Below, in pieces: positions 2,663 through 40,966 of a stretch of 64,000 nucleotides of DNA (positions are counted from its first letter, which is position 1; every line of letters starts with the position of its first letter). The position numbers were made by a program, and so were the translations under genes. The DNA is taken from positions 62,001-126,000 of the forward strand of contig NZ_BAHE01000007.1 in the NCBI RefSeq assembly GCF_000298235.1, written 5' to 3'. Below the pieces are notes generated by a model that saw only the letters and a program-made list of their open reading frames with translations, made no database searches and had not been told where the DNA came from. This DNA comes from Gordonia namibiensis NBRC 108229. Its GTDB lineage: Bacteria > Actinomycetota > Actinomycetes > Mycobacteriales > Mycobacteriaceae.

Positions 2663-2724
2663 ACTCGCAGAGTCCCACCTCCGCGACCGGCGTGACGGCA
2701 CCCTTCCCATTCACCGGGCGTCGT

Positions 2725-7226: not shown

Positions 7227-8104
7227 GCACCTTCCGGTACTGGCACACCCATTCGGGTGAGCATGTCTCGTGGGTCGGCGGGCGGGGCGAGGTCGAGCAG
7301 TTGCCGGCCCCGCCGATGCGCTGCGGCCATGCACATCTCGTCGTCGGAGTGGATCCAGAACTCACCGGCCGCGATCTGATCGAGCATGTGGGCAGCGGCG
7401 TCGAGGGGATCGAGTCCGCGTTCGACGTTGTCGCGCTGCATCGCGGCGAACACCGCGTTGGCCGTGGGATTGTCGGTCGGGGCCTCGCGCAGTGCCGACC
7501 GGAAGATGTCGCTGCGGATCGAGTGCGGTATCACCGCACTCACCTGGATCGGTGCGCCGACGATGGACAGGTCCTGGTGGAGGCACTCGGTCATCGCCAG
7601 CACAGCATGCTTGCTGACGATGTACGGGGCCTGCACCGCAACGGCATTCAGGCCGCCGACCGAGGAGAGGTTGGCGATGCACGACGGGGTCCCGGCCGCG
7701 ATCATCCGCGGCACGAACGACTTGATGCAGTAGAAGACACCGTCGACGTTGATCTGCATGAGCCGCCGCCACCGGGCGTCGTCGATCTCCCAGATCAACC
7801 CGGCCGATTCGATCCCGGCGTTGTTGATCAGCAATTCCACACTGCCGTGGCCCTCGAACACCGCGGCCGCGAACTCCTCGACCCCGCGGGGGTCACCGAC
7901 GTCGACGGCGTAGGCGCTCGCCCGACCGCCGGCAGCACCGATGCCGTCGGCGACGGCCGCGGCGCGATCGCGATCGATGTCGGCCACCACCACGTGCATC
8001 CCGAGAAGGCCCACGCGACGCGCGAATCCCTCGCCGATACCGGCCGCGGCACCGGTGACCACTGCAGTCCCCGACGAAAACCGCTGTGCTGCTTCGTTGG
8101 TCAT
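7223..8104 (-). CDS. Short-chain dehydrogenase/reductase
   Basis: A 293-residue classical SDR with a long C-terminal tail. Residues 15-23 give TGAAAGIG, NNAG follows near 93, and the active site is SSVGG ... YIVSK. ADIDRD after strand 2 carries an Asp, which favours NAD(H). The extra C-terminal region (DEMCMAAAHRRGRQLLDLAPP) resembles SDRs found next to BVMOs in ketone degradation. It likely interconverts a secondary alcohol and the ketone used by the adjacent BVMO. The stop overlaps the BVMO start (ATGA). A 51-bp gap separates it from the upstream SDR, the largest break in this part of the run. Confidence 0.88.
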   Translation of the reverse strand: MTNEAAQRFSSGTAVVTGAAAGIGEGFARRVGLLGMHVVVADIDRDRAAAVADGIGAAGGRASAYAVDVGDPRGVEEFAAAVFEGHGSVELLINNAGIESAGLIWEIDDARWRRLMQINVDGVFYCIKSFVPRMIAAGTPSCIANLSSVGGLNAVAVQAPYIVSKHAVLAMTECLHQDLSIVGAPIQVSAVIPHSIRSDIFRSALREAPTDNPTANAVFAAMQRDNVERGLDPLDAAAHMLDQIAAGEFWIHSDDEMCMAAAHRRGRQLLDLAPPADPRDMLTRMGVPVPEGA

Positions 8105-11724: not shown

Positions 11725-12632
11725 GATGCTGACTCCTTGGCCTGCCGGGCCCACATCCACTCGTGGCCCCAATAACTGTCGGCGGTGATTTCTTCTGCGG
11801 TGTAATGAGTTTCGTCGACCAGCATCCCGCCGGTGCCGTACTCGATGTCCCAACCACCCGGTACCCGGACGTAGAACGAGACCATCTTGTCGTTGGTGTG
11901 CCTGCCCAGAGTCGATGAGACCGGGAAGTCGCGGGCCATGACCTGGTCGTACGCCCGGCCGACGGCGTCGAGTTCGTCGACCTCGACCATCACGTGGATG
12001 AGCCCGGGGTCACGCCCTTCCAGCGCCGGCATTATGGCGAGGCTGTGGTGCCGCTGGTTGATCCCGAGGAAGCGGATCCTCGACGGCGGCATCCCGGGCG
12101 GCGTGGGCATCCGGAACGCCCCCCGCGGCAGGAATCCCAGTGTCTCGGTGTAGAACACGTAGGACTCGTCGAAGTTGGCCGTCGGCATCACGACGTGCCC
12201 CAGCCCCTGGGGGCCGGTGATGAACTTCTGTCCGTACCTGGTGAGAACCGGGCTGTGGTCGAGCACCGGGCCGTGGAAGATCTCGAGCGGCGTTCCGCCG
12301 GGATCCTTCAGGCTGATGCCGGCCTCGATCCGTCGGTGATCACACAGGTCCTGGTCCATCTCCGAGTACGGGGTCCCGGCCTCGTCGAGCACTCGCCGGA
12401 GTTCGGCGAGTGCGAGGTGGTCGCGCACCTCCCAGCCGACTGCCGTGACCCGGTCGGCATTGCCTCGTTCCACAGTTATCCGAGCTGTGCGCTCGTCCAT
12501 CCGGAAGTGAAGCGCATCCTCTTCGGGTCCGGTCCCCGGCGCGAATCCTAGTACCTCGAAACCCAACTCGCGCCACCGATCGATGTCGGTGGCCATCACC
12601 CGTACGTAGCCGAGCGCTGCGATCAGACCCAT
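11721..12632 (-). CDS. Type I extradiol dioxygenase (HsaC/BphC-like)
   Basis: A 303-residue two-domain VOC protein. The C-terminal domain carries the Fe(II) ligands His146 (GLGHVVM), His213 (LIHVMVE) and Glu264 (WDIEYG). The second-sphere residues His195 (QRHHS), His245 (GRHTND) and Tyr254 (SFYVRV) line up with BphC His195, His241 and Tyr250. It should cleave a catechol ring next to the hydroxyls. In the steroid pathway HsaC opens ring A of 3,4-DHSA. The upstream HsaA-like oxygenase would supply the catechol and the HsaD-like hydrolase would process the product. Full active site, normal length; the exact catechol is inferred. Confidence 0.92.
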   Translation of the reverse strand: MGLIAALGYVRVMATDIDRWRELGFEVLGFAPGTGPEEDALHFRMDERTARITVERGNADRVTAVGWEVRDHLALAELRRVLDEAGTPYSEMDQDLCDHRRIEAGISLKDPGGTPLEIFHGPVLDHSPVLTRYGQKFITGPQGLGHVVMPTANFDESYVFYTETLGFLPRGAFRMPTPPGMPPSRIRFLGINQRHHSLAIMPALEGRDPGLIHVMVEVDELDAVGRAYDQVMARDFPVSSTLGRHTNDKMVSFYVRVPGGWDIEYGTGGMLVDETHYTAEEITADSYWGHEWMWARQAKESAS

Positions 12633-12649: not shown

Positions 12650-13834
12650 TCAGATCATCACCCGCAGGGGACCTGCGGGGACCTCGACACCCAGGGACGC
12701 CAGCGCGGCGGCGTGATAGGTGGTGCTGGTGACATGGATCGCGTGGTGCAGTCCGGCGTGCGCGTCCCGCCAGAACCGCTGCAACGGATTGTCCATCCGC
12801 AGCGCGTTGCCGCCAGACCGATCGAAGATCTCGTCGGCCGCGCGGACCGCGCGCCAGGCGGCACGGATCTGATTGCGTCGCGAGGTGGCCCGCATCTCGA
12901 AGTCGATCTCGGTACCGGCGTCGACGAGGTCGTAGATGCGATCGACGTTGCCCAAGAGCTGTTGCCGGGCGGCGTCGATCTCGGCGGCCGCCTCACCGAG
13001 TGCGTGCAGGACGTAGGGGTCGTCCTTGATCGCGCCACCCGTTGCGGCCACCCGATCGCGCTGATAGGCGATTCCCGCTGCCAGCACACCTTCACAGATA
13101 CCGATGGTCGCCGAGGTGATCCCCAGCGGGAACATCGTCGACCACGGCATCTTGTAGAGCGTCTCGGTGACGCCGTACTCCTTCGCCGCAGTGCCGTCGA
13201 TGACGTCCCCGGAGCGCATCACACGATGTGCCGGGATGAAGGCGTCCTCGACGATGATGTCCTTGCTGCCGGTTCCCCGGAGCCCCACCACATCCCAGGA
13301 ATCCTCGACGATCTGGTAGTCCGACCGCGGCAGGATGACATGCAGACCGACCGGCGGCATCAGCGGTTTGCCGTCCGCGTCACCGGTGAAGGCGCCGAGG
13401 AAGATCCAGTCGCAGTGGTCGGTGCCGGAGGAGAACTGCCACCGCCCCGTCATCCGGTAACCGCCCTCGACGGGTGTTGCGACACCACCGGGCATGTAGG
13501 GCGACGCCTGCCAGGTGTCCGAGTCGCCGCCGAGCACTTCGTCCTGGACCCGCGGGTCGGCGAAGGCCAGCTGCCACGGGTGGACGCCGACGATCCCGCC
13601 GATCCATCCGGCCGACCCGTAGATGCCCGCCGTCCCCATCACGGTTTCGGCGAACTCCCTCGGGTGCGCCTCGTACCCGTCGTAGGTCTTGCGCTGGAGC
13701 AGCCGGATGATGCCGGATTGCTTGAGTCCCTTCGCGACATCGTCGGAGAGTCGTCCGAGTTTCTCGGACTCCTCCGCACCCGCGCGCAGTTCGTCGGCCA
13801 TGTCCATGACCTTGTCGAGCACTTCGTGGCTCAT
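12650..13834 (-). CDS. HsaA-like flavin-dependent monooxygenase, oxygenase component
   Basis: A 394-residue protein of the acyl-CoA-dehydrogenase fold. Instead of acyl-CoA residues it has the pattern of class D flavin monooxygenases: GIIRLLQRKTYDGYEAHPREFAETV, then GWIGGIVGVHPWQLAFADPRVQDEV, GRWQFSSGTDHCDWIFLGA, VGLRGTGSKDIIVEDAFIPAHRV, and a C-terminal FWRDAHAGLHHAIH. These match HsaA of the cholesterol pathway in order and length. HsaA hydroxylates 3-HSA to the catechol using reduced flavin from HsaB, here probably the product of 2997-3524. A clear Shine-Dalgarno GAGGAG precedes ATG 13834. A distinct phenolic substrate is possible because this is a paralogous set away from the KstR boxes. 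Confidence 0.9.
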   Translation of the reverse strand: MSHEVLDKVMDMADELRAGAEESEKLGRLSDDVAKGLKQSGIIRLLQRKTYDGYEAHPREFAETVMGTAGIYGSAGWIGGIVGVHPWQLAFADPRVQDEVLGGDSDTWQASPYMPGGVATPVEGGYRMTGRWQFSSGTDHCDWIFLGAFTGDADGKPLMPPVGLHVILPRSDYQIVEDSWDVVGLRGTGSKDIIVEDAFIPAHRVMRSGDVIDGTAAKEYGVTETLYKMPWSTMFPLGITSATIGICEGVLAAGIAYQRDRVAATGGAIKDDPYVLHALGEAAAEIDAARQQLLGNVDRIYDLVDAGTEIDFEMRATSRRNQIRAAWRAVRAADEIFDRSGGNALRMDNPLQRFWRDAHAGLHHAIHVTSTTYHAAALASLGVEVPAGPLRVMI

Positions 13835-13886: not shown

Positions 13887-15092
13887 TCAGGACACGGACT
13901 GGCCGGCGCCCTCGCGGTTCGGTGCCGAGGCCGGGTTCTGCGCCAGGGCGCTTCGCCCGGCGGCGAGGTTCTCGTCGACCTCGGCTTGCCAGCTCTTCAG
14001 TGCGCGTTCGGTGTCGATCTGGTACTCGAATCGATTGACCATCTCCGGCGCGATGTCCTCGACGTCGACGTAGAACTGCTCGTACCAGCGCCGGAGCTGG
14101 TAGACAGGCCCGTCTTCTTCGCACAGCAGAGGATTGTCGATGCGCGACTTGTTCTTCCAGATCTGCACGTCCTGTTCGAAGCCGATGGCGACTCCCTTCG
14201 CAACGGCCTGTGCGATCTGGTTCGCCTGCTCGTCGGCCATCCCCGCGGGCTTCTCGACGAGCACGCCGTACTGCAGCCGGAACGATGTCGGCGAGATCGG
14301 ATAGTGGCAGTTGACCAGGTAGATGTTCGGGTCGCCGTCGTGATCACGGCCGCCGCTCCAGAGCTTGTCGATCATGTACGAGGGTCCGAAATACGATGCG
14401 TCGGACTGGCTCTCGGTGCTGTAGTTGGTGCTCTGGCTCACCCCGGCCGCATCCGCGCGGGGTCGCGACCGCATGACCTGACTGGCGATGTGCCCCTCGA
14501 AGACGTTCTTGAAGTAGGTCGGCATGCCGTAGTGCACGTAGAAGAAGTGCGCCATGTCGACGACGTTGTCGACGATCTCGCGGCAGTGCGATCCGGTCAC
14601 GTCGATCGAGTTCCACACCCAGTCGGTCCAGCCCTCGTCGCCGTAGGTCGGGATCTCCGGGATGGCGAGCTCGGGGGGCGGAACCGATCCCTGCGGATCG
14701 TGCCAGACGAACAGCTGGCCACTCACCACCGTGGACGTCCAGGCCCGTGTTCGCGCAATGGGCGGAACCCTTTTCGCGTACGGGATCCCGGCGCACTTGC
14801 CGTCGCCGCGCCAACGCCAGTCGTGGAAGGGGCAGGCGATCGTGTTGCCCTTGACGGTTCCGAGCGCCAGGTTGCCGCCCATGTGCCGGCAGAAGGCGTC
14901 GAGCACGTTCAACGTGCCGCCCTCGCCGGCGAAGACCACGAGTTCGGTACCGAACGCGGCCACCTGGTGCGGAGCTCCGTCGGCGAAATCGCGAACCAGT
15001 CCGAGGCAGTGCCATCCCCGGGCGTAACGCTGTGGCGGCGCACCGGTGTCGATGTCCCTGACTTCGCCGCTGGGTTCGATGGTCGTACTCAC
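13887..15092 (-). CDS. KshA-like Rieske non-haem iron oxygenase
   Basis: A 401-residue oxygenase starting at GTG 15092 with AGGAGG just upstream; the longer frame from 15185 lacks a ribosome site. The Rieske cluster ligands are Cys68-His70 (FCRHMGG) and Cys87-His90 (CPFHDW). The catalytic iron ligands are His182 and His187 (DMAHFFYVH) and Asp308 (FEQDVQIW), as in KshA. Also KshA-like are GRDHDGDPNIYLV and the C-terminal YEQFYVDVEDI. KshA 9alpha-hydroxylates 3-ketosteroids, which with KstD breaks ring B. The reductase gene lies directly upstream. It may be a KshA paralogue with a different substrate preference; a 3-ketosteroid is the best guess. Confidence 0.92.
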   Translation of the reverse strand: MSTTIEPSGEVRDIDTGAPPQRYARGWHCLGLVRDFADGAPHQVAAFGTELVVFAGEGGTLNVLDAFCRHMGGNLALGTVKGNTIACPFHDWRWRGDGKCAGIPYAKRVPPIARTRAWTSTVVSGQLFVWHDPQGSVPPPELAIPEIPTYGDEGWTDWVWNSIDVTGSHCREIVDNVVDMAHFFYVHYGMPTYFKNVFEGHIASQVMRSRPRADAAGVSQSTNYSTESQSDASYFGPSYMIDKLWSGGRDHDGDPNIYLVNCHYPISPTSFRLQYGVLVEKPAGMADEQANQIAQAVAKGVAIGFEQDVQIWKNKSRIDNPLLCEEDGPVYQLRRWYEQFYVDVEDIAPEMVNRFEYQIDTERALKSWQAEVDENLAAGRSALAQNPASAPNREGAGQSVS

Positions 15093-15218
15093 AACGCCTC
15101 CTGATCGGATGATCGCGACCGTGCCACTCGTCGCGGTGTCCTCAGCTTGGCAACCAGGGCGCCCGGTGTGACGTGGGTCTCCCATCGAGTGGGAGGGCTT
15201 TTCGGCACCACCGCGAGT

Positions 15219-16292
15219 TCAGTACTCGATCGTGATCTTCTCGCCCACCGACTCGGCCTGGCAGGCCAGGATGTATCCCTCGGCGATCTCGTCGTCGGAC
15301 AGAATCTCGTTGTGCGCCAATCGAACCTCACCCGAGGTGAGACTGCAGACGCACGCGCTGCACGCCCCTTCCCGGCAGGAGAACGGCGCATCGAGACCCG
15401 CCTCCAGCAGCGCGTCGAGGAGCTTCTTCCGGCCCCTCCAGGGCACCACGTGCGATTCGCCGTCGAGGTGGACCTCGACCGAACACCCCGGATCGTCGTC
15501 GTCCTCGGGCGCCTCGTCCCCGACGGGGCCGGCGGCGTCGAAGGGGTTGCCCTGCAACGAGACGAACCGCTCCGCATGAACCCGACCACGCTCGATGCCC
15601 AGCGCCTCGCACACCGAGGCGACGAGGTCCATCAGCGGCGGCGGTCCGCACACGTAGACCTGCCGGTCGAGGTATGGCTGCAGCAGAGCAGACAGGCCCG
15701 CACCGGTCGGCCGCCCCTGGACGGAGTCCAGCAGGTGGACGACGCTGAACCGGGTGCCGTGGCGATCCGCGAGCTCACGCAGCTCCTCCGCGAAGACGAC
15801 CGACCGCTCGTCGCGGTTGGCGTAGATGAGCGCGACGTGTCCGGAACCCGCGACGAGGATCGACTTCGCGATCGAGATCACCGGGGTGATGCCGCTCCCG
15901 CCGGCGATGAGCACGACCGACTCGTCGAGCGACTTCGGGCCGAACGTACCCGCCGGCGGGAGGACCTCGAGTTCATCCCCCGACGTGATCGTGTCGCAGA
16001 CCCAGTTGGAGCCGTGACCGCCGTGCACGCGTTTGACCGTGACCTTGAGGGTCGTGTCCACGTGAGGCGAACTCGCGAGCGAATAGCATCGCGCTCCCCC
16101 TCGGCCCTGGTCGGGCACCCGGATGGTCAAGAACTGGCCCGCGGAGTAGCCGAACGCCGCAGTGTCCTCGGGCGCGGGTTCGACCAGCAACGACCTGGTG
16201 TCGTGCGTCTCGTCGACGACACCGACGACCCTGACTCTCCGGCCGCGCCGATCGTCACGGCCGTCAATCCTGTCCCAGATCATGGTGCCCAC
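15219..16292 (-). CDS. KshB-like ferredoxin-NAD(P)H reductase with C-terminal [2Fe-2S] domain
   Basis: A 357-residue electron-transfer protein. The order is an FAD domain (RCYSLASSP near 85), an NAD(P)H domain (GGSGITP, then YVCGPPPLMD) and a plant-type [2Fe-2S] domain with CREGACSACVC and the last Cys in LACQAES. This is the KshB/HmpA arrangement. It should reduce the adjacent Rieske oxygenase. It is first in the minus-strand run, facing the IclR gene. Start: GTG 16292 or ATG 16283 (Met4); both have only a weak G-rich ribosome site. An acidic linker (EAPEDDDDPG, about 270) separates reductase and ferredoxin parts. Confidence 0.92.
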   Translation of the reverse strand: MGTMIWDRIDGRDDRRGRRVRVVGVVDETHDTRSLLVEPAPEDTAAFGYSAGQFLTIRVPDQGRGGARCYSLASSPHVDTTLKVTVKRVHGGHGSNWVCDTITSGDELEVLPPAGTFGPKSLDESVVLIAGGSGITPVISIAKSILVAGSGHVALIYANRDERSVVFAEELRELADRHGTRFSVVHLLDSVQGRPTGAGLSALLQPYLDRQVYVCGPPPLMDLVASVCEALGIERGRVHAERFVSLQGNPFDAAGPVGDEAPEDDDDPGCSVEVHLDGESHVVPWRGRKKLLDALLEAGLDAPFSCREGACSACVCSLTSGEVRLAHNEILSDDEIAEGYILACQAESVGEKITIEY

Positions 16293-22320: not shown

Positions 22321-23411
22321 GCGAACTGGCCGCCGAACTCGTCGCGGCGACGACCTCGATTCTGGACCGGGTCACCGTCGGCACCGAGACACCGCCGACG
22401 GGCATCGACACGGAACTGTGGGCAGCCCTGGCGGATTCGGGCTTCACCAATCTCGATGTTTCCGACGCCGCCGACGGGCAGGGCGCCGATCTCGAGGACG
22501 CGCTCGCCGTGCTGTCCGCGGTGACCGCAGCCGGGGCGATCACCCCGTACGTCGAACATGCGCTCCTGGCCGCATGGCTCGCCGGCGCAGTCGGAAAGTC
22601 ACCGGAGGGGACCACCGCGACGATCGCGGTCGCCGACGCCCTCGACTCGCGTCTCGACCGCACTGCCGACGGTGAGGACCGCCTGATACTCAACGGGATC
22701 GTGCGCGACGTCGTCCACGCGACCTCCGCCGACTCCGTTGTCCTACTCCTACCCACCGCCGACGGACCTCTGGTGGCGATCGTCGACCTCGGTGATCCCG
22801 GGGTGAACGTCGCAGACGGCACGGACCTGCTCGGGGTGTCGTTCGGCGACATCCGATTCGACGAGGCGGTGGCCGACTTCCACGCCGATTCCCCGTTCGA
22901 GGCCGCCGATGTCCGGTTGCGAGGCGCGCTGGCGTATTCGACGGCACTGGCCGCAGCCGCACGCACCGTCCACGACCTGACCGTGCAGTACGCCTCGGAA
23001 CGCATCCAGTTCGGCCGACCGCTCGCCAAGTTCCAGGCCATCCAACAGCGACTCGCGGTGATGGCGGCCCGGACCACCATGATGGAGACCGCGACACGAG
23101 TCGCCGCCGAGGCGACCTCGCACGATCCGGGCGGCGCCCGGGCCGCGGTGGCCGCGGCAAAGGTGGTGACGTCGGCATACGCCGACGAGGTGGCCGCGGC
23201 CGGACACCAGATCCACGGTGCGATCGGCTTCACCGCGGAGCACCGGCTCGGCCGGTCGACGACGGCGCTCTGGACATGGCGCGACCGGCACGGGACCGAA
23301 GCCGAATGGGCCGATGTCCTCGCCGGGCGGGTGCTCGACGGTGGCGCCGACCCGTGGGAGATCATCACCGGGACCGAAGCGCCGGAAGCCTCGCCGGAGA
23401 GTGCCCGATGA
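22317..23411 (+). CDS. Acyl-CoA dehydrogenase, second subunit of the pair
   Basis: A 364-residue acyl-CoA dehydrogenase-fold protein starting at ATG 22317 (ATGA overlap). The N-terminal and middle domains are degenerate and rich in Ala and Asp, with only short FAD-like segments. The C-terminal domain is conserved (TVQYASERIQFGRPLAKFQAIQQRLAVMAARTTMM, then AGHQIHGAIGFTAEHRLGRSTTALW). The shape is that of FadE28-type partners, which pair with a FadE29-type subunit and share FAD and active sites. It is very unlikely to act alone. The stop overlaps the CoA-transferase start. Confidence 0.88.
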   Translation: MSELAAELVAATTSILDRVTVGTETPPTGIDTELWAALADSGFTNLDVSDAADGQGADLEDALAVLSAVTAAGAITPYVEHALLAAWLAGAVGKSPEGTTATIAVADALDSRLDRTADGEDRLILNGIVRDVVHATSADSVVLLLPTADGPLVAIVDLGDPGVNVADGTDLLGVSFGDIRFDEAVADFHADSPFEAADVRLRGALAYSTALAAAARTVHDLTVQYASERIQFGRPLAKFQAIQQRLAVMAARTTMMETATRVAAEATSHDPGGARAAVAAAKVVTSAYADEVAAAGHQIHGAIGFTAEHRLGRSTTALWTWRDRHGTEAEWADVLAGRVLDGGADPWEIITGTEAPEASPESAR

Positions 23412-24673
23412 GCGCGGATCTCGTGGGTGACGAGAAGACCGGGGTCGATCCCCGGGCAGCGTGGCGTGCCGCCGAGTCGGCCGTCGACCACGGAATCCTC
23501 AGCGGTCTGCGGGTTCTCGACCTGAGTCGGGTCCTGGCCGGCCCCTACACGGCGCAGATCCTCGCCGATCACGGTGCCGAGGTGATCAAGGTCGAGGCGC
23601 CCGCGGGTGACGAGACCCGAGGGTGGGGACCCCCGTTCGAGGACGAGGGCGCCACGAGCGCCTATTACCAGAGCCTCAACCACAGCAAGGAGAACATCTG
23701 CCTCGACCTCCGAACCGACGCGGGACGGGAGGTCCTCGCCGATCTCCTGGCCGGTGCCGACATCGTGACCGAGAACTTCAAGGCCGGCACGATGGCGCGG
23801 TGGGGTTTCGACTACGACACCGTTCTCGCCGAGCGGCACCCTCGGATGATCTATTGCCGCATCACGGGTTTCGGCGTCGACGGACCGATGGGCGGGCTAC
23901 CCGGATACGACGCGGTCCTCCAGTCGTTCGGCGGTCTGATGAGCGTGAACGGTTACCCCGATGGCAATCCGCTGCGCGTGGGCATCCCCATCGTGGACAT
24001 CGTCGCCGCCAACATGGCGGTGAGCGGCATACTCCTGGCGCTGTACGAGCGGGACCGGAGCGGCCGCGGGCAACTGGTGGACATGACACTGCTCGACTCG
24101 GTGATCTCCATCCTGCATCCGCATGCCGCGAACTGGGTCTCCGGCGGTGCGATACCGCAGCGCACCGGCGACTTCCACCCGACCGTGGTGCCCTACCAGG
24201 TCTTCTCCGCTCGAGACGGCGACTTCTTCGTCAGTGCGGCCAACGACCGTCAGTTCCGTTCGCTCGTCGAGGTTCTCGGGGTGCCCGGGCTCGCCGACGA
24301 CCCGCGGTTCGTGCACAACGGCGAGCGGTCGCAGCATCGCGTCGAGTTGACCACCCTTCTGGGCGAACGTATCGCGCAGTGGGACCGGGACGATCTCGCG
24401 GAACGGCTCGAGCGCGCGGGAGTCCCGGCGAGCCCGGTCAACAATGTCGCGGAGGCACTGACCTCGCTGCAGGTCCGGCATCGGGAGTTGTTCCTCGACA
24501 CCGACGAGTATCGCGGCGTCGGTGTCCCGATCTCGTTGAGCAGGTCGACTCACCGCTCACCCCGCCCGGCGGTACGTCGCGGCGAGCACACCGAGGAAGT
24601 CCTCGCCGCCCTGGGCTACGACCCGAGCCGGTTGGCCGAGCTCCGGTCGTCGGGCGTGTTCGGCGACGGGTAG
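23408..24673 (+). CDS. CaiB/BaiF family (class III) CoA-transferase
   Basis: A 421-residue enzyme starting at ATG 23408. It has the usual order: LRVLDLSRVLAGPYTAQILADHGAEVIKVEAP, then SLNHSKENICLDLRTDAGR, DIVTENFKAGTMARWGFDY, GGLPGYDAVLQSFGG, and GRGQLVDMTLLDSVISI. In the last, the Asp five residues after VD corresponds to the nucleophilic Asp of formyl-CoA transferase and CaiB. The small domain (ARDGDFFVSAANDRQFRSL) and the GVPASPVNNVAEAL segment follow. It moves CoA between acids, so it activates the substrate of the dehydrogenase pair without ATP. Donor and acceptor cannot be told. Confidence 0.92.
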   Translation: MSADLVGDEKTGVDPRAAWRAAESAVDHGILSGLRVLDLSRVLAGPYTAQILADHGAEVIKVEAPAGDETRGWGPPFEDEGATSAYYQSLNHSKENICLDLRTDAGREVLADLLAGADIVTENFKAGTMARWGFDYDTVLAERHPRMIYCRITGFGVDGPMGGLPGYDAVLQSFGGLMSVNGYPDGNPLRVGIPIVDIVAANMAVSGILLALYERDRSGRGQLVDMTLLDSVISILHPHAANWVSGGAIPQRTGDFHPTVVPYQVFSARDGDFFVSAANDRQFRSLVEVLGVPGLADDPRFVHNGERSQHRVELTTLLGERIAQWDRDDLAERLERAGVPASPVNNVAEALTSLQVRHRELFLDTDEYRGVGVPISLSRSTHRSPRPAVRRGEHTEEVLAALGYDPSRLAELRSSGVFGDG

Positions 24674-24683: not shown

Positions 24684-25361
24684 ATGGGACGCAACACGAC
24701 CGCGCCATCCGAACCCGCACAGTCGCGGTCGGTCAGACGTGTCGTCGCCGAGATCGAGCGCATGATGGCGACCGGTGAGCTACTTCCGGGACAGCCGATC
24801 CGACAAGAGTGGATGGCCGAGCGTCTGGGTGTCAGCCGACTCCCCATCCGGGAGGCCCTGCGCGAGTTGACCGCTCAGGGGTTGGTGGCCCACCGGCAGA
24901 ATGTCGGGTACACCGTCGTGCGGTTGGACCAGGACGAGTTCGACCAGATCTACCTCATGCGTTCGGCGCTGGAGCGCGAGGTCCTCGGTCGGCTCCCCCG
25001 GTTCGACGCCGCGGCACTCGACGAGATGCACGTCATCGCCACGCGGATCACCGAGGCCGCGGACCGCGGTGACATCGTCACGATGCGCACCGAGAACCAG
25101 ATCTTCCACTTCGCGATGTTCGAGCGCTCCGGGCTTCACCTGGTGGTCGCCGAACTGCGCCGGCTCTGGAAACTCGCCATGCCCTATCACGCTGCGTACC
25201 TGTACGACCCGGCCGGACGGCAACGTGTGTGCGGGGAACACGAAGAGATGATCGACGCCCTGGCCGAGGGTGACAACGCCCGCCTCATCGAGCTGATGAA
25301 CGAGCACCGGCGCGGCGGCGAGGCCAACACCGGGATGATCCTGGGTGGTGGCCGGCCGTGA
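24684..25361 (+). CDS. GntR-family regulator, FCD (FadR) subfamily
   Basis: A 225-residue regulator with AGGAAGGA ahead of ATG 24684. Residues about 15-80 form the winged helix (VVAEIERMMATGELLPGQPI, MAERLGVSRLPIREALRELTAQGLVA). The FCD ligand domain follows, with helices starting LDQDEFDQIYLMRSALEREVL; its likely metal-binding His residues lie in NQIFHFAMFE, MPYHAAYLYD and CGEHEEMIDAL. FCD proteins sense organic acids or acyl-CoAs. It is co-transcribed with the degradation genes it probably controls; the 20305-20326 palindrome is a candidate site. Confidence 0.9.
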   Translation: MGRNTTAPSEPAQSRSVRRVVAEIERMMATGELLPGQPIRQEWMAERLGVSRLPIREALRELTAQGLVAHRQNVGYTVVRLDQDEFDQIYLMRSALEREVLGRLPRFDAAALDEMHVIATRITEAADRGDIVTMRTENQIFHFAMFERSGLHLVVAELRRLWKLAMPYHAAYLYDPAGRQRVCGEHEEMIDALAEGDNARLIELMNEHRRGGEANTGMILGGGRP

Positions 25362-26317
25362 CATCACCGTGGGATCCCGACCTGGCGGCCATCGTCGACC
25401 GGATGGCCGCTGCCGGCGCCAAGTCGGTTCGCGAACAAGGTGTGGCCGGCATCCGGAAGAGTCTGGAATCGATCGTGCGCCCACCCGGCCCGGACATGTT
25501 CTCGGTCACCGACGCGGTCGCCGATGGCCACGGCGCCCCGGTCCCGGTCCGGATCTATCGCCCGCATGCCGCTCCGAAGACCGGTGCGGCAGCGCTGGTC
25601 TGGTATCACGGCGGCGGGATGATCATGGGATCGCTGAACTCCTTCGACCGCCTGGCCCGCGACCTGGCCGAGGCCACCGGCGCCGTCATCGTCAACGTCG
25701 ACTATCGGCTCGCGCCCGAATACACCTATCCCGCAGGAAACGACGACGCGTACGCGGCGCTCGTGTGGACCCACCGGGTCGCGGCCGACCTCGGCGTCGA
25801 CCCGTCGATGATCGGCGTCGGGGGCGACAGTGCGGGAGGCGGACTCGCCGCCGCAACTGCGCTGCGCAGCCGAAACGAGCAGGGACCGGCCATCGCCCAG
25901 CAGGTTCTGTTCTATCCCGGTGTGGAGCGGCGTCGTGATCGGCCGTCGATGCGCGAATTCGGTGACAGCCCGTTCCTCACCGCCGAGGACATCGACTGGA
26001 TGAAAAATCTCTACCTCGGCAGCGATTCCTCACTCGACGACGAGTACGGGACACCTGCGCTCGCCGCCGACCTCTCCGGACTCCCGCCTGCGATCATCGC
26101 GGTCGGACACGGTGATCCGCTGCGCGATGGCATCGAGGAATTCGGAGAGCGTCTCCGCGAGGCCGGTGTGCCCACCGCCCAGTTGCGCTATCCCGGTGTG
26201 GGACACGGGTTCGCGATGCAGGCGCCGTCGGTGGCGCGGGGTCGTGCGGCGCTCGCCGAGGTCGGCGCCCTGGTCGCCGCGCGCTTCCGCCATCCCGTGC
26301 CCGCGGCGAAGCACTGA
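25358..26317 (+). CDS. HSL-family alpha/beta hydrolase
   Basis: A 319-residue esterase-like protein starting at GTG 25358, coupled to the regulator by GTGA. Motifs: WYHGGGMIMGSLNSFDRLARDL (HGGG oxyanion hole), VDYRLAPEYTYPAGNDDAYAAL, GGDSAGGGLAA (nucleophile Ser), an acid expected in AVGHGDPLRDGIEEF and His in YPGVGHGFAMQ. It is a second family IV esterase in the window, after 9058-10044, but of clearly different sequence. It may release the acid that enters the coupled acyl-CoA pathway, from an ester. Family firm, substrate unknown. Confidence 0.9.
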   Translation: MTSPWDPDLAAIVDRMAAAGAKSVREQGVAGIRKSLESIVRPPGPDMFSVTDAVADGHGAPVPVRIYRPHAAPKTGAAALVWYHGGGMIMGSLNSFDRLARDLAEATGAVIVNVDYRLAPEYTYPAGNDDAYAALVWTHRVAADLGVDPSMIGVGGDSAGGGLAAATALRSRNEQGPAIAQQVLFYPGVERRRDRPSMREFGDSPFLTAEDIDWMKNLYLGSDSSLDDEYGTPALAADLSGLPPAIIAVGHGDPLRDGIEEFGERLREAGVPTAQLRYPGVGHGFAMQAPSVARGRAALAEVGALVAARFRHPVPAAKH

Positions 26318-26319: not shown

Positions 26320-26337
26320 CCCGCGCTCAGGCGCGGG
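26320..26337. terminator. Hairpin between convergent genes
   Basis: CCCGCGC, loop TCAG, GCGCGGG: a perfect 7-bp GC stem lying across the 9-bp gap between the convergent hydrolase (ends 26317) and ferredoxin reductase (ends 26327). No T-run follows. It could end transcription from both sides, as is common for I-shaped terminators in actinobacteria. Confidence 0.5.
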
Positions 26338-27613
26338 CGGGCGCCAGCAGCTTCTTGATCGGGACGCTCTCGTCCGCGAACAGCTCCGGGGGTGGACGGT
26401 GACCGCGATTCAGTGCGGTCCGCAACGTCATGAAATCGGCCGGCGAGTTGAGGCACTCCGCGGCGACCAGCCGGCCGCCGGAGAAGTACAACGACACCTG
26501 ACGGTCGGGCCGCTTCGGGTCGGTCCGGTGCACCACTTCGCTGTGCCCGCCGGACAATCCGACGATCTGGAGCTTCTGCGCCCCCTGGTCGGACCAGAAC
26601 CACGGCGTGGGTCGGGTCGCCGGTTCGGCGCCGAGAAGGATCGCCACCGCCGTATTCGCCTGCTCGGTGGCATTGTCGACGGATTCCAGCCGGTAGCGCC
26701 GCCCACTCGCGGACACGTGGATCGTGCAGTCCCCGATCGCGAGTGTCCATCCGTCGGAGGCCAGACAGTTGTCGTCGACGACGATCCCACCGTCGCACTC
26801 CAGTCCGAGCATCTCCCCGAGTTCGGTCCGTGGTTCGGCACCTATCCCGACGATCACCGTCGCCGCGGGAACGACCACGCCGTCATCGAGACGCACGCCC
26901 CGGATGCGGTTCGGGCCGCCGTCGTCGGTATCGGTGTCGGAGCGGACGATCTCGACAGGTCGCCGGCCCAGCAGGACGACGGTTCCCATCGACTCGTGCG
27001 CGTTGAGAAGCGCTGCTGCGGTATGGGTCCCGACCGCACGGGCCAGCAGACGATCGGCCGTCTCGATGACCGTTACGTCGCTACCGGCGGCACGGAGACC
27101 CGCGGCGACCTCGAGACCGATGAAACCGCCGCCGATCACCACCGCCGGACCGGCGGTGGCCCGCTCCCGGAGCAGATCGGCATCGTCGAGGTCGCGGAGG
27201 ACGAGGACGTCGGGATGGTCCGCACCCGGCAGTGCAAGGCGACGGGCTCGAGCGCCGGTGGCGAGGACGAGTCGATCGAAAGCCTCGCTCCGACTACCGT
27301 TCTCGTCGGACAGATCCAGCACCACACCATCGTTGGTGCGATGCACACCGGTGACGCGGGTCCGCCGATGCAGCTCGATGTGCTGATCGTCGAAGTAGGA
27401 CTCCGCCCGCAACGACAGCGTCGAGGGATCGATCGCGCCCTTGAGCAACCCCTTCGAAAGCGGCGGCCGATGGTAGGGCACGTGCGGTTCGTCGGTGAAC
27501 AACGCGATCCGGCCGGTGAAGCCGTCCGTGCGCAGCCGGTCCGCGAGATGAACTGCAGCGTGCGACGCACCGACGACCGCGACGCTGTGTGGCGTCACCT
27601 CAGACCTGTTCAT
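26327..27613 (-). CDS. NAD(P)H-dependent ferredoxin reductase (rhodocoxin/putidaredoxin reductase type)
   Basis: A 428-residue FAD protein. It starts with SVAVVGASHAAVHLADRLR, then VPYHRPPLSKGLL, LVLATGARARRLALPG, the NAD(P)H motif VVIGGGFIGLEVAAGLRAAG, LAIGDCTIH and TPWFWSDQGAQKLQIVG, all in the order of class I P450 reductases. The first loop is GASHAA rather than GxGxxG, as often seen in this family. It reduces the ferredoxin encoded just upstream (27600-27917, 14-bp overlap), which feeds the P450 at 27927-29177. Together they form a complete three-component monooxygenase. Confidence 0.92.
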   Translation of the reverse strand: MNRSEVTPHSVAVVGASHAAVHLADRLRTDGFTGRIALFTDEPHVPYHRPPLSKGLLKGAIDPSTLSLRAESYFDDQHIELHRRTRVTGVHRTNDGVVLDLSDENGSRSEAFDRLVLATGARARRLALPGADHPDVLVLRDLDDADLLRERATAGPAVVIGGGFIGLEVAAGLRAAGSDVTVIETADRLLARAVGTHTAAALLNAHESMGTVVLLGRRPVEIVRSDTDTDDGGPNRIRGVRLDDGVVVPAATVIVGIGAEPRTELGEMLGLECDGGIVVDDNCLASDGWTLAIGDCTIHVSASGRRYRLESVDNATEQANTAVAILLGAEPATRPTPWFWSDQGAQKLQIVGLSGGHSEVVHRTDPKRPDRQVSLYFSGGRLVAAECLNSPADFMTLRTALNRGHRPPPELFADESVPIKKLLAPARA

Positions 27614-27917
27614 CGGGGATGGTGACGTGGAGGTCGGTGTCGGCCAGGGTGAGCTGGCACGACAGACGCGAGGTGTCCTCGCGATCCGACGACGTGCAGT
27701 CGAGCATGTCGTCCTCGTCCTCGCTGATCTCGGGGAACAGGTGGGCTTCTTCGGGATCGAGGTAGACGTGGCACGTCGCGCAGGACAGGGTGCCGCCGCA
27801 CTGGCCGACGATCCCGCTGACCCCGTTCTTGACCGCGGTCGCCATCACCGAGTCGCCCGCCGTGCCGTCGATCACCTTCACCGCCCCGTCGGGCTGTGTG
27901 TAGAACACCTTGGGCAT
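27600..27917 (-). CDS. [2Fe-2S] ferredoxin of the P450 system
   Basis: A 105-residue adrenodoxin/putidaredoxin-type ferredoxin. The cluster ligands are the cysteines of GQCGGTLSCATCHVYL (C-x5-C-x2-C) and the later Cys in RLSCQLTL. The C-terminal part VTIPDEQV is usual for the family. It lies 9 bp after the P450 gene and overlaps the reductase gene by 14 bp, so the three should be made together. It carries single electrons to the haem. An acidic face (EISEDEDDMLD) is the likely docking surface. Confident. Confidence 0.93.
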   Translation of the reverse strand: MPKVFYTQPDGAVKVIDGTAGDSVMATAVKNGVSGIVGQCGGTLSCATCHVYLDPEEAHLFPEISEDEDDMLDCTSSDREDTSRLSCQLTLADTDLHVTIPDEQV

Positions 27918-27926
27918 GCGGACCTC

Positions 27927-29177
27927 CTACCAGCTGACCGGGAGATCGACGATCGGCTGGGTCAGGTTGTCGTTGTTGATGACCGGGTCACCGGCGAGCT
28001 GCAGGCCGGGAAGGCGGCGGAACAGCTCGGCGATGGCGACCTGCATCTCCATCCGGGCCAGCGGAGCGCCCAGGCAGTGATGCATGCCGTAACTCAGTGT
28101 CAGGTGTGGGTTGGACTGCCGGCGGATGTCGAACGTGTCGACGTGGTCGATCGCCGCCCCGTCGTGGTTGGCCGACGCCGGGTCGCCCATGATCGCCTCA
28201 CCCTTGCGGACGAGCTGGCCGTCGAGCTCGACGTCCTCGGTGGCCACGAAGGGCACCAGCCCGCTGGGTCCGCCGACCTTGCCGTTCAGCTCGAAGCGCC
28301 CATGACGCAGGATCTCCTCGACCGCGGTGGGCGTCACCCCGTCGATGTCCTCGAGCAGCACTCGGAGCTGGTCGGTGTTGTGCAGGAGCGACAGGACCCC
28401 GGCGCAGATGAAGTTGGCCGTGTTGTCGAAGCCGCCGATGATGAGAACCAGTGCCACGGACAGGATCTCACCGTCGGTGAGGGTGTCGTCCTTGTCCTGC
28501 GCGCTGGTGAGGTCGCTGAGCAGATCCTCCCGCGGATTCTTCCGGCGCTCCTCGATGAGGGCGAACATGTACATGACCAGCTCGGTCATGTTGGCGGTGG
28601 CTTCCTCCTCGGGCATGTTCGCGACCGCGAGCGTCGCCGAGCTCCACTTCTGGAACTTGGGTCGATCCTCCGGCGGCACCCCGATGAGGTTGGCCAGCAT
28701 CTGGATCGGCAACGCCACCGCGTAGTCGTCGACCAGGTTGGTCGGCGCTCCCTTGGCGAGCATGTCGTCGATCAGCTTGTTGGCGAACTCGACCGCCGAG
28801 TCCCGCATCGCCTTGACCCGTTTCGGCGAGATCGACTTCTGCACGAGCTTGCGCAGCTTGGTGTGTTGCGGCGGGTCCTCGAACTGCAGTGTGGTCTTGA
28901 GGAAGTCGGGGAACTCCACGAAGTAGGGCACCACCCGCTCTCCGGTACGGAAGGGCTCGCGGACGAATCGGGGGTCGCCGAGCATCTCGCGCGCCACGGC
29001 ATTGCGGTGGATGATCCAGGCCTCGCCGCCGTAGGGCATGGTGATCTTGGTCATCGGCCGGTCCTCGGCGATCGCCTTGTAGCGCAGGGCCGCCTCGGAC
29101 GGGGACACCGGCGAGAACGGATAGACCGTGTAGGCCTCGTCCAACTCGGCTGCGCCGGCAGTGGTTTCGGTACTCAT
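27927..29177 (-). CDS. Cytochrome P450 with unusual I-helix Asn and haem-loop Leu
   Basis: A 416-residue P450 starting at ATG 29177. The ExxR pair is Glu288/Arg291 (VEEILR) and the haem ligand is Cys368 in LSYGMHHCLGAPLAR. Two departures from the norm: the I-helix reads GGFDNT (248-253), so the position of the conserved Thr of the acid-alcohol pair is Asn252, and the first residue of the haem loop, usually Phe, is Leu361. An Asn here is known in P450cin (CYP176A1). It hydroxylates a C-H bond using the ferredoxin and reductase encoded downstream. The neighbouring SDR and SMP-30 lactonase suggest further oxidation to a ketone or lactone. Substrate unknown. Confidence 0.93.
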   Translation of the reverse strand: MSTETTAGAAELDEAYTVYPFSPVSPSEAALRYKAIAEDRPMTKITMPYGGEAWIIHRNAVAREMLGDPRFVREPFRTGERVVPYFVEFPDFLKTTLQFEDPPQHTKLRKLVQKSISPKRVKAMRDSAVEFANKLIDDMLAKGAPTNLVDDYAVALPIQMLANLIGVPPEDRPKFQKWSSATLAVANMPEEEATANMTELVMYMFALIEERRKNPREDLLSDLTSAQDKDDTLTDGEILSVALVLIIGGFDNTANFICAGVLSLLHNTDQLRVLLEDIDGVTPTAVEEILRHGRFELNGKVGGPSGLVPFVATEDVELDGQLVRKGEAIMGDPASANHDGAAIDHVDTFDIRRQSNPHLTLSYGMHHCLGAPLARMEMQVAIAELFRRLPGLQLAGDPVINNDNLTQPIVDLPVSW

Positions 29178-29214
29178 GTCAGGACTCCAGGGCTGTGGGA
29201 ACGTTCGGTGGCGG

Positions 29215-30120
29215 TCAGACCGGCATCTGTGCCGGGGCGACGACCTGCGGGATCGCCTCGGGCGTGATCGACATGATCTGGTCCCACTGTTGGGCGACGG
29301 TCTCGACGGTGAGGGCGGGGTCGTGGATGCCCGTGGTGTTGACCAGTGCGAGCCGGTTGACGATCCCACCCGCGACGTTGAAGACCTCGCCGGTGACCTC
29401 ACAGGACGGGTGGACGAGGAACGCCGCGACGGGAGCGACGTGCTCCGGCCGGAGCTGAGTCCGCATGTACTCCATGATCTCCGGCGACAAGGTGTCGGCA
29501 GCGGCCTCGGCCATACGGGTGCCTGCGCCCGGTGCGATCGCGTTGACCTTCACGCCGGCTTCGAGGCCCTCGAGCGCGAGATTTCGGGTCAGGCCGAACA
29601 GTGCGCCCTTCGAACCGCCGTAGTGGGCCATTCCCGGGTTGCCGAGCATCGCCTGCGAGATCGTATTGACCACGCGCGGCGCCGGCGACTCGAGCAGATG
29701 GGGCCACGCGGCACGGAGCAGACGCATCGGTCCGAGGAAGTGCACGTCGAGGTGGCGCTGGTATTCGGCGTCGGGCACCTCGCGGAAGGGCGCCGCCCGG
29801 ACGATGCCCGCGTTGTTGATGACCGCGTCGATCCGTCCGAAGTTCGAGATCGCCGCGTCGACGAGCGCTTGCGCGCCCTCATCGGTGGTGATGTCGGAGG
29901 CGACCGCCACCGCTTTCCCGCCGGCGGCGGTGATCTCCGCGGCGACGTCGGCGGCCGGGTCACCCGCCTCGACACCGGAGCCGTCGGTGGTCGAGCCCAG
30001 GTCGCCGACCACGACCGAGGCGCCGCGCGAGCCCAGGAGAAGGGCGTGTGCACGGCCGATGCCGCGGCCCGCGCCGGTCACGATCACGACGCGATCGGTG
30101 AAGTCGAGTTGTGCTGTCAT
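29215..30120 (-). CDS. Short-chain dehydrogenase/reductase
   Basis: A 301-residue SDR. TGAGRGIGRAHALLL begins the fold, followed by VVGDLGSTTDGSGVEAGDPAADV, an insertion after strand 2 typical of the SDRs paired with P450s and of mycofactocin-dependent families. NNAG near 107 and ISQAMLGNPGMAHYGGSK give the active site. It probably oxidises the alcohol formed by the P450 encoded 37 bp downstream. Mycofactocin dependence is only a possibility suggested by the insert; no mycofactocin genes are in the window. Confidence 0.88.
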   Translation of the reverse strand: MTAQLDFTDRVVIVTGAGRGIGRAHALLLGSRGASVVVGDLGSTTDGSGVEAGDPAADVAAEITAAGGKAVAVASDITTDEGAQALVDAAISNFGRIDAVINNAGIVRAAPFREVPDAEYQRHLDVHFLGPMRLLRAAWPHLLESPAPRVVNTISQAMLGNPGMAHYGGSKGALFGLTRNLALEGLEAGVKVNAIAPGAGTRMAEAAADTLSPEIMEYMRTQLRPEHVAPVAAFLVHPSCEVTGEVFNVAGGIVNRLALVNTTGIHDPALTVETVAQQWDQIMSITPEAIPQVVAPAQMPV

Positions 30121-30164
30121 GTTGTCGTCCTCGAATCGGTTCAGAACAGGTGGGTGGTCGGAGC

Positions 30165-31112
30165 TCAGGGGCGCGTCTGGCCGCCGTGGTGCTTGACGTC
30201 GGCGACCCAGATGGTGCCCAGTGCTTCACGTGCGGACTTCTCGAAGTCGAAAACCTCGTAACCGACCGTCATGTAGAGGGTGCTGCGATCGGGTCCGCCG
30301 AGCAGGCAGGCCGAGGCGATCCCGCCTTCGAGCGGCATCGGCACCGCGTCCGTCAGGCCGTCCTCGGTGAAGCGTGCGACGTAACCGCCCCCGGGCATCG
30401 CTGCCCAGACGCCACCGTCCTCGTCCAGGCCGATGCCGTCGGGCATGAACGGGCAGGTGGCGAAATCCCGTGCGTTCGACAGTGATCCGTCGGCGGCGCG
30501 GTCGATCACGGTGATCTTCTGCGCCATGACCTCTGCGACGTAGACCTTGGAACCGTCCGCACTGATACCGATTCCGTTGCCGCAGTTCAGCTCCGGGATA
30601 CCGGCCGGCACGTGCGCGGTACCGTCGGGTTCGACGACGATCAGCGGCGAGGTGATCGGGGTCTCGCCCTGGAAGATGTCGAAACCCAGCTGGGTGATGT
30701 AGGCACGACCGTCGGCGTCGACGACCATGTCGTTGACGGCCTTGATCGCGAACTCGCTGACATCGGCGTACACGGTGAGATCGTCGATGCCGTTGCCGCC
30801 GTGGACGAGCACCTTCTGCTCGTGCATCGAGTTCACGATCAGCCGACCGTCGGGCAGCCAGCCGAAACCGCCCAGGGTGATCGGGACATCGGTGTCGGCC
30901 GCGCGTCCGTTCGCGTCGATGACCACGGTCGCGTTGCCGTCTGCGTCCAGGGTCTTGAGCGTCCCGGTGTACATGTCCGAGAACCAGAGTGCCCCGTCGT
31001 GCCAGCGCGGACATTCCGGCCAGGAGAACCCCGACGCGATCTTGCGGGCCTCGAATGTGGGTGCGTCCGCGGCGGCTACGGCAGCTGCGACGGTGTCGAC
31101 TGGAGTGGTCAT
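30165..31112 (-). CDS. SMP-30/gluconolactonase-family beta-propeller lactonase
   Basis: A 315-residue protein from ATG 31112, with GGAAGG upstream. Family signatures: FSWPECPRWHDGALWFSDMYTGTL, with the metal-binding Glu in WPECP, then VNDMVVDADGRAYIT carrying the metal-binding Asn, NCGNGIGISADGSKVYVAE and MPDGIGLDEDGGVWAA carrying the catalytic Asp. SMP-30 lactonases hydrolyse aldono- and other lactones. In this operon a lactone could arise from P450/SDR action, or from a BVMO product. A 17-bp palindrome lies 34 bp upstream. Confidence 0.88.
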   Translation of the reverse strand: MTTPVDTVAAAVAAADAPTFEARKIASGFSWPECPRWHDGALWFSDMYTGTLKTLDADGNATVVIDANGRAADTDVPITLGGFGWLPDGRLIVNSMHEQKVLVHGGNGIDDLTVYADVSEFAIKAVNDMVVDADGRAYITQLGFDIFQGETPITSPLIVVEPDGTAHVPAGIPELNCGNGIGISADGSKVYVAEVMAQKITVIDRAADGSLSNARDFATCPFMPDGIGLDEDGGVWAAMPGGGYVARFTEDGLTDAVPMPLEGGIASACLLGGPDRSTLYMTVGYEVFDFEKSAREALGTIWVADVKHHGGQTRP

Positions 31113-31145
31113 CGGTGAACCTTCCGGAACGTGAGGTGCTGAGTT

Positions 31146-32431: not shown

Positions 32432-34165
32432 ATGGCCGGCTCGTCCGATCCACAACAGACCAGCACCGAACCCGAGACCTACGACGTCATCGTCGTCGGT
32501 GCCGGTGGTGCCGGTCTGGCCGCCGCGATCACCGCGGCCCGCAAGGGCCTCAAGACCGTTCTGATCGAGAAGTCGCCCTACTGGGGCGGTTCGACCTCCC
32601 GGTCCGGCGGCGGCGTGTGGATCCCCAACAACTCGGTGCTGAAGCGCGACGGCGTGAGTGATACGCCGGAGAAGGCCCGTGAGTACGTGCACGCGATCAT
32701 CGGCGAGCACGCACCGGCCGACCGTATCGACGCCTACATCGATCGCGGACCCGAGGCCCTCGACTTCCTGCTCGAGCACGCACCCCTCGACCTCGAGTGG
32801 GTGAAGAACTACTCGGACTACTACCCCGAGGCACCGGGTGGACGTCTCGGCGGCCGGTCGATCGAACCGCGGCCGTTCGATGCGCGCCGGCTCGGCGACG
32901 ATCTCGAAACGCTGCACCCGCAGTACACCAAGGCCCCGCTCAACATGGTCGTGCTGCAGTCCGACTACCGCTGGCTCAACACCGGCCTCCGCCACTGGCG
33001 CGGACCGCTGCGCATGGCCAAGGTCGGCAGCCGCTTCTTCTGGGCCCGCAGCCGCGGCAAGAAGCTGATCGCGATGGGTGCGGCGCTGGCCGCCGAGCTG
33101 CTCATCGGCGTGCGCGAGGCCGGGGTCCCGCTCCGCCTCAACACCGGCCTCGTCGACCTCATCACCTCCGACGACCGGGTCGTCGGCGTGATCGCGGAGT
33201 CGGACGGCAAGCAGTTCGAGATCCATGCGCGTCAGGGCGTGATCCTCGCCTGCGGTGGCTTCGAGCACAACGAGGAGATGCGCAAGAAGTACCAGCGCGA
33301 GCCCATCGGGTCCGACTGGACCACCGGCGCACCGAGCAACACCGGTGACGGCATCAACGCCGGACTCAAGATCGGCGCCGCGGTCTCCCTCATGGACGAC
33401 GCCTGGTGGGGTCCGACGATCCCGCTGCCGCGCGGACCCTGGTTCGCACTGTCGGAGCGGTCGGTCCCCGGCACCTTCATCGTGAACATGCGCGGCAAGC
33501 GCTACATGAACGAGTCGCTGCCGTATGTCGAAGCGGTGCACCAGATGTACGGCGGCGAGTTCGGTCACGGCGAGGGCCCGGGCGAGAACGTGCCGTCGTG
33601 GCTGATCTTCGACCAGCGGTGCCGCAACCGCTACCTCTTCGCCGGTATCACTGCGCGCCAGCCGCTTCCGAAGAAGTGGTACGAGTCGGGCGTCGTCGTG
33701 AAGGCGGACAGCATCTCCGCGCTCGCCGAGAAGATCGGTGTCCCCGCCGAGTCGCTCGTCGAGACCACCGAACGCTTCAACGGCTTCGCCCGCAACGGCA
33801 TCGACGAGGACTTCGGCCGTGGCGCAAGCGGTTACGACCACTACTACGGAGACATCACCAACAAGCCCAACCCGAGCCTCGGCGAGGTCAGCAAGGGCCC
33901 GTTCTACGCGGTCAAGATGGTTCCCGGTGACCTCGGCACCAAGGGCGGCATCAACGCCGATGCCGCGGGTCGCGCACTCCGCGCCGACGGGTCGGTCATC
34001 GAGGGCCTGTACGCCGCCGGCAACACCAGCGCCCCGATGATGGGCCACACCTACGCCGGTCCCGGCGCCACCATCGGCCCCGCGATCGTCTTCGGCTACC
34101 TCGCCGCCAGCGACATCGCCGCCAAGGCCTCGGCCACCACCCCGACGTCCCAGACAGGAGCCTGA
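32432..34165 (+). CDS. kstD: 3-Ketosteroid delta1-dehydrogenase
   Basis: A 577-residue flavoenzyme with GAAGGGGA before ATG 32432. The sequence follows M. tuberculosis KstD (Rv3537) closely: GAGGAGLAAA (FAD loop), GGSTSRSGGGVWIPNN, SDYYPEAPGGR, ILACGGFEHNEEMR, DDAWWGPTIPL, NESLPYVEA, DLGTKGGI, GHTYAGPGATIGPA. Catalytic positions of KstD1 correspond to Tyr130, Tyr365, Tyr541 and Gly545. It desaturates C1-C2 of 3-ketosteroids such as androstenedione in the central cholesterol pathway. It is followed 3 bp later by chsH3, the same pair as Rv3537-Rv3538. Two KstR boxes precede it, so it should be induced on cholesterol. Confidence 0.95.
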   Translation: MAGSSDPQQTSTEPETYDVIVVGAGGAGLAAAITAARKGLKTVLIEKSPYWGGSTSRSGGGVWIPNNSVLKRDGVSDTPEKAREYVHAIIGEHAPADRIDAYIDRGPEALDFLLEHAPLDLEWVKNYSDYYPEAPGGRLGGRSIEPRPFDARRLGDDLETLHPQYTKAPLNMVVLQSDYRWLNTGLRHWRGPLRMAKVGSRFFWARSRGKKLIAMGAALAAELLIGVREAGVPLRLNTGLVDLITSDDRVVGVIAESDGKQFEIHARQGVILACGGFEHNEEMRKKYQREPIGSDWTTGAPSNTGDGINAGLKIGAAVSLMDDAWWGPTIPLPRGPWFALSERSVPGTFIVNMRGKRYMNESLPYVEAVHQMYGGEFGHGEGPGENVPSWLIFDQRCRNRYLFAGITARQPLPKKWYESGVVVKADSISALAEKIGVPAESLVETTERFNGFARNGIDEDFGRGASGYDHYYGDITNKPNPSLGEVSKGPFYAVKMVPGDLGTKGGINADAAGRALRADGSVIEGLYAAGNTSAPMMGHTYAGPGATIGPAIVFGYLAASDIAAKASATTPTSQTGA

Positions 34166-40887: not shown

Positions 40888-40966
40888 TCTGCGCGCTCCT
40901 CGTTCTCAAGAGTGTTGTTGCACTGGACTGGCTGGTCGGGACTGATGTGGGTGCGTACGGTTCCGG

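Follow-up and report, generated by a model that had tools for sequence, protein, structure and literature searches.

Does an asparagine at the position of the proton-delivering threonine of a cytochrome P450, paired with a leucine at the position of the haem-loop phenylalanine, signify a separate way of activating oxygen, a special substrate, or both? The question is raised by a P450 gene of Gordonia namibiensis NBRC 108229, for which a sequence-only reading had proposed the first and, more cautiously, the second. We analyzed the gene within a window of 64,000 nucleotides (contig NZ_BAHE01000007.1, positions 62,001 to 126,000), and all coordinates below are those of the window unless another replicon or locus is named.

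The P450 open reading frame lies on the minus strand, with its ATG at 29177 and its stop at 27927, and the residue numbers first given to the two unusual positions, Asn252 and Leu361, proved exact. The product scores 62 bits against PF00067 (Pfam cut-off 22.8) and carries the marks of the superfamily: the GxHxCxG loop of the cysteine ligand and the ExxR motif. Its motifs are GGFDNT (248-253), ExxR (288-291), and LSYGMHHC (361-368), with Cys368 as the haem ligand. Two other readings of the region were rejected: the plus strand of 27927-29177 does not encode a P450, and a longer minus-strand frame from a GTG at 29402 overlaps the neighboring dehydrogenase gene. The gene and the positions discussed below are as follows.

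27927..29177, minus strand: cytochrome P450 of 416 amino acids, class I, CYP107-like (Pfam, motifs, and MycG as nearest solved structure)
28422..28424, minus strand: codon of Asn252, the I-helix alcohol position, flanked by Asp251 and Thr253 (computed from the ATG at 29177)
28269..28292, minus strand: insertion of 7-8 residues, approximate place (exact borders depend on the alignment)
28248..28250, minus strand: codon of Phe310, replacing the conserved Arg of the (V)PRxAxEDV strand (from alignments)
28095..28097, minus strand: codon of Leu361, the haem-loop Phe position (from motif alignment)

The register of the I helix is central to the question. The helix aligns without gaps to MycG (AGYEST), to RapN (6l39; AGYETT), to paralogues from the same genome, and to outgroups at 33-40% identity (xGHETT); Asp251 falls on the acid, Asn252 on the alcohol, and Thr253 on the second threonine of ETT. 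The I helix of P450cin in the PDB (LLLGGIDNTARFLS) has the identical register. The first reading had named an alignment of Thr253 with the usual threonine as the result that would count against it. Since the alignments are ungapped and none shifts by one, Asn252 is the residue that aligns there, Thr253 was rejected as the true alcohol residue, and the comparison with P450cin at the proton-delivery position stands.

How rare are these residues? We placed 114 distinct actinobacterial P450s from outside the family of this protein in one HMM alignment, a sample that favors actinobacteria and sequences matching PF00067 well. Position 252 is Thr in 109 of them, Ser in 3, and Asn in 2. Position 361, where the LSYGMHHC loop starts, is Phe in 105, Trp in 2, Tyr in 1, and Leu in 1 (1/109), with gaps in 5. 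Asn252 and Leu361 occur together in none of the 114, which bears out the proposed rarity of the combination. Asn is also the native residue at the alcohol position of CYP107X1 (7wex; GYENT), which is 32% identical and differs in having Glu for Asp; an Asn by itself is therefore uncommon but not unique.

There is also a third change, overlooked in the first reading, together with an insertion. The arginine of the (V)PRxAxEDV strand binds a haem propionate, as Arg299 does in P450cam, and position 310, here Phe, is its site. Outside the family, Arg occupies it in 105 of 112 sequences, and both of the non-family sequences with Asn252 retain it. The 7-8 inserted residues, absent from the outgroup P450s, sit between the ExxR helix (EEILR, 287-291) and Phe310.

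Relatives at 39-80% identity occur in Nocardia, Rhodococcus, Williamsia, Gordonia, Actinomadura, Actinocorallia, Microbacterium, and others. Asn252 is present in all 39 distinct family sequences, and all 39 lack Arg at position 310 (Phe in 38, Tyr in 1); Leu361 is present in 36, the exceptions being three sequences with Phe (L039, L040, L096). In the tree, the family is a single clade (SH-aLRT 100), with one change from Thr to Asn at position 252 and two changes at position 361. The asparagine arose once in the family, convergently with P450cin. Within the genus, the P450 is an accessory gene, found in 3 of 37 genomes.

We found no solved structure for any family member. An AlphaFold model built on 28 family sequences reproduces the P450 fold (mean pLDDT 77) and an I helix that is continuous from 235 to 266; its haem loop at 357-367, with pLDDT below 50, is too unreliable for residue geometry to be read from the model. 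In a fold search, MycG and other CYP107/CYP105 enzymes came out nearest among solved structures, the match to MycG (CYP107E1, PDB 2y46) having a VIA Z of 40.7 and an rmsd of 2.6 A over 381 residues. MycG is also the named CYP107 of known structure with the best identity (36-38%, where the family level is over 40%). Together with RapN (CYP107G1) and OleP, it is closest to this P450 in fold and sequence, but these enzymes act in macrolide biosynthesis, have Ser or Thr rather than Asn, lack the insertion, and have Phe or another usual residue in the haem loop; MycG keeps Arg at the 310 position. P450cin is absent from the best 60 PDB sequence matches, which are CYP107/105 types. Neither P450cin nor P450cam is among the best 50 rows of the fold search, which has no bearing either way.

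P450cin (CYP176A1, PDB 1t2b) appears not to be close in sequence, and its Asn is convergent, but it shares the Asp-Asn-Thr acid-alcohol site (GGIDNT versus GGFDNT here). It is likewise catabolic, with a Baeyer-Villiger step coming next in the cineole pathway; it differs in its redox partner, a flavodoxin-type cindoxin versus a [2Fe-2S] ferredoxin here, and in its context, which here is steroid. Asn242 of P450cin is reported not to be a functional replacement for Thr; instead it determines regio- and stereoselectivity through a hydrogen bond to the substrate's ether oxygen, and the enzyme turns over fast with coupling of about 80% (review PMC8398027). A second threonine aids the hydrogen-bond network in enzymes such as P450 BM3 and CYP199A4 (PMC9366932). 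Given this precedent and the retention of both Asp251 and Thr253, we read Asn252 as a substrate anchor, and the proposal that the asparagine by itself creates a separate oxygen-activation environment is not upheld.

A broader form of that proposal holds that Asn252 and Leu361, with Phe310, give a different oxygen-activation environment retained by selection, for example through proton delivery, stabilised peroxo/hydroperoxo chemistry, or a shifted haem potential. P450 haem potential is modulated both by the haem-loop Phe and by the propionate Arg (Phe393 of BM3 is an example), and here three haem-side changes are fixed together in one clade. However, the asparagine of P450cin, reported to be no stand-in for Thr, goes with coupling of about 80% (PMC8398027), and the acid and the second threonine are both kept here. 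In addition, Asn can occur without the other changes, as the two non-family Asn sequences keep their Arg, and the coupling among the changes is not strict, as L039, L040, and L096 combine Asn and Phe310 with the normal haem-loop Phe. We consider this explanation unlikely.

The gene neighborhood informs the second part of the question, that of the substrate. The P450 lies in an operon whose genes, with three conserved neighbors, are given here.

30165..31118, minus strand: SMP-30/gluconolactonase-like hydrolase (presumed metal-ligand motifs E, N, D conserved)
29215..30120, minus strand: short-chain dehydrogenase/reductase, SDR (nucleotide-binding and YxxxK motifs conserved in relatives)
27600..27917, minus strand: [2Fe-2S] ferredoxin (Fer2), redox partner in the operon
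26327..27613, minus strand: NAD(P)H-dependent ferredoxin reductase, FAD (Pyr_redox_2 and Reductase_C)
25358..26317, plus strand: alpha/beta hydrolase of hormone-sensitive lipase type, convergent, conserved neighbor
24684..25361, plus strand: GntR/FCD regulator, conserved neighbor
23276..24673, plus strand: CaiB-type CoA transferase, conserved neighbor (true start probably downstream)

With a [2Fe-2S] ferredoxin and an FAD ferredoxin reductase in the operon, the P450 belongs to a class I system. The order SMP-30 hydrolase, SDR, P450, ferredoxin, reductase, all in one direction, is conserved in Nocardia, Rhodococcus, Williamsia, and Gordonia, and the hydrolase, regulator, and CoA transferase genes converge on it. 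Literature searches on the operon (SMP-30 with P450 and Baeyer-Villiger; locus tags of RHA1) returned nothing on the P450 gene itself. Two further neighbors recur among the relatives. A protein of about 310-350 residues (L020:2326-3537; L063:24638-25564), with no match in Pfam, NCBIfam, or the PDB, is conserved near the operon in RHA1 and at least 8 relatives. A branched-chain-type ABC transporter (permease and ATPase) lies near the operon in several genomes of Rhodococcus and Nocardia (L009, L012, L018, L022, L063:20770-24290) and is possibly an uptake system for the substrate of the cluster.

On either side of the operon, the window contains genes of steroid-degradation type.

1763..2710, minus strand: alpha/beta hydrolase in HsaD-like position
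2997..3524, minus strand: flavin reductase, HsaB-like
5211..7334, minus strand: Baeyer-Villiger/flavin monooxygenase 1 (true start downstream)
10105..11853, minus strand: Baeyer-Villiger/flavin monooxygenase 2, FMO-like (ORF start uncertain)
11721..12632, minus strand: extradiol dioxygenase, HsaC/BphC-like
12650..13834, minus strand: HsaA-like flavin monooxygenase oxygenase component
13887..15185, minus strand: 3-ketosteroid 9alpha-hydroxylase-type oxygenase (KshA_C, 286 bits, and Rieske; ORF start uncertain)
15219..16292, minus strand: Rieske-oxygenase reductase in KshB-like position
32432..34165, plus strand: 3-oxosteroid 1-dehydrogenase, KstD (NCBIfam NF005882, 978.8 versus cut-off 788)

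Homologues of KshA, KstD, HsaA, and HsaC thus occur together in the window, which at the gene level is the set for 9,10-seco degradation of the A/B rings. The HsaA-like and HsaC-like proteins score below the NCBIfam equivalog cut-offs, so a polycycle other than a steroid may be what the cluster degrades. A separate group at 39256-48506 (acyl-CoA synthetase, lipid-transfer-type thiolase, MaoC-like protein, and acyl-CoA dehydrogenases) looks like a side-chain degradation set; it lies beyond the block that resembles the plasmid described next.

Most genes of the window between 0.6 and 31 kb have counterparts, partly rearranged, at 943.9-996 kb of plasmid pRHL1 of R. jostii RHA1, with identities of 75% for KshA, 79% for HsaA, 71% for HsaC, 77% for CaiB, and 78% and 60% for Baeyer-Villiger enzymes 2 and 1. 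The orthologue of the P450 (pRHL1 945,868-947,067; 72-74% identity) has the same motif set, the same operon, and the same surrounding steroid gene set. The RHA1 locus differs in gene order and in its adjacent Delta4-KSTD homologue, which is split: it consists of ORF pieces (L063, 25847-27129) and looks broken, and is intact in Nocardia and Williamsia. A cluster of orphan function, putatively for A/B-ring steroid degradation only and most like the cholate genes, is reported on pRHL1 (PMC4810484). We infer that the P450 region of pRHL1 is this cluster.

Further links to steroid genes are seen in relatives. A Delta4-(5alpha)-KSTD-like flavoprotein (790 bits to 4at0) adjoins the operon in 8 relatives, KshA adjoins it in L039 and L040, and a homologue of Baeyer-Villiger enzyme 1 adjoins the P450 in Actinomadura (L035-L038) and lies about 13 kb away in RHA1. 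In a set of 301 genomes from the taxonomic family to which the window belongs (P450 at E <=1e-120, this KshA type at E <=1e-185), 22 carry the P450, 22 carry the KshA type, and 20 carry both, leaving 2 carriers of each without the other. The association has a Fisher p of 6.6e-27, which overstates it because genome counts are uncorrected for relatedness. Of the 20 shared carriers, 17 have P450 and KshA on one contig, 9-43 kb apart, and all 23 P450 carriers tested have both KshA and HsaA homologues. Other P450s of steroid catabolism, CYP125 and CYP142, have ETT at the I helix. They resemble this P450 in belonging to actinobacterial steroid catabolism (PMC4810484, PMC6153880), but oxidise the sterol alkyl side chain and are of another family.

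On balance, the probable explanation is a steroid-catabolic three-component P450 in which Asn252 positions the substrate; the special substrate suggested at the outset is judged likely. The P450 would be the oxygenase of a class I system within an island for A/B-ring steroid degradation, and would hydroxylate an oxygen-bearing steroid or steroid-like polycycle. By analogy with Asn242 of P450cin, Asn252 would hold the substrate in one orientation through a hydrogen bond to a carbonyl, hydroxyl, or ether oxygen, and protons would pass through Asp251, Thr253, and water rather than through Asn252. The gene set suggests that the SDR would oxidise the new alcohol or lactol, and that the SMP-30 hydrolase would open a lactone formed either by that oxidation or by the Baeyer-Villiger enzymes. 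Leu361 and Phe310 may tune the potential of the haem and free space next to its propionates, or change the shape of the pocket, although this is a guess.

The same operon could be read without the steroid. A P450cin-like hydroxylase of monoterpenoids or cyclic ethers would hydroxylate beside the ether oxygen to yield a lactol, the SDR would convert it to a lactone, and the SMP-30 enzyme would open the ring, the steroid genes being mere neighbors. The operon of lactonase, SDR, P450, ferredoxin, and ferredoxin reductase suits such a route from lactol to lactone to hydroxy acid, the asparagine has its precedent in P450cin (PMC8398027), and a Baeyer-Villiger enzyme is found in the Actinomadura and RHA1 neighborhoods. 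The tight co-occurrence and linkage with KshA and HsaA, and the Delta4-KSTD and KstD neighbors, argue against mere adjacency, and we regard this route as decidedly unlikely.

A reading of the changes as neutral drift within a single lineage, serving no special function, gains something from common ancestry: the family is of one descent, so fixation represents one event kept under constraint rather than 39 independent ones. Against drift, Asn252 and Phe/Tyr310 persist down to 39% overall identity (L041) though most other positions have changed, and we find it very improbable. That the P450 is the actinobacterial oestrone 4-hydroxylase AedA is, judged by gene neighborhood and plasmid records, more improbable still: AedA is a P450 whose gene lies in a steroid-degradation cluster of a Rhodococcus megaplasmid (PMC12507874), but that cluster is described as having AedB, a CoA ligase, and beta-oxidation genes of a 4,5-seco route, which sets it apart from the KshA, KstD, and HsaA types of the 9,10-seco route found here, and, besides RHA1, no plasmid record exceeds 60% identity to the P450.

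The reading as a steroid-catabolic P450 with a substrate-positioning Asn252 admits a bolder and tentative extension, to which we give a minor chance: this clade reached the asparagine of P450cin independently and rebuilt both haem edges, with Arg and Phe lost and a loop inserted, so as to bind and oxidise an unrecognised class of environmental steroids, for example ones bearing a cyclic ether or lactone, that is handled by the orphan pRHL1-type cluster. The superfamily itself is known; what is new here is the link of this P450 to the orphan steroid cluster. If the substrate-positioning reading is right, the enzyme would allow the idea of Asn as a substrate anchor in place of the proton-delivery Thr to be tested a second time and independently, and would come with its own sequenced redox partners. 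Its substrate would name that of the orphan steroid cluster on pRHL1 of R. jostii RHA1. In addition, the clade-wide loss of the haem-propionate Arg offers a clean natural variant for the study of haem potential.

Lastly, identities within the operon (window 26327-31175) are mosaic. The SDR is 92-93% and the SMP-30 hydrolase 88-90% identical to those of Gordonia lacunae and Williamsia muralis (L029 and L025), and in the same comparison the P450 is only 69-71%, the ferredoxin 74-75%, and the reductase 63% identical, a pattern that suggests recombination within the operon or very unequal rates.
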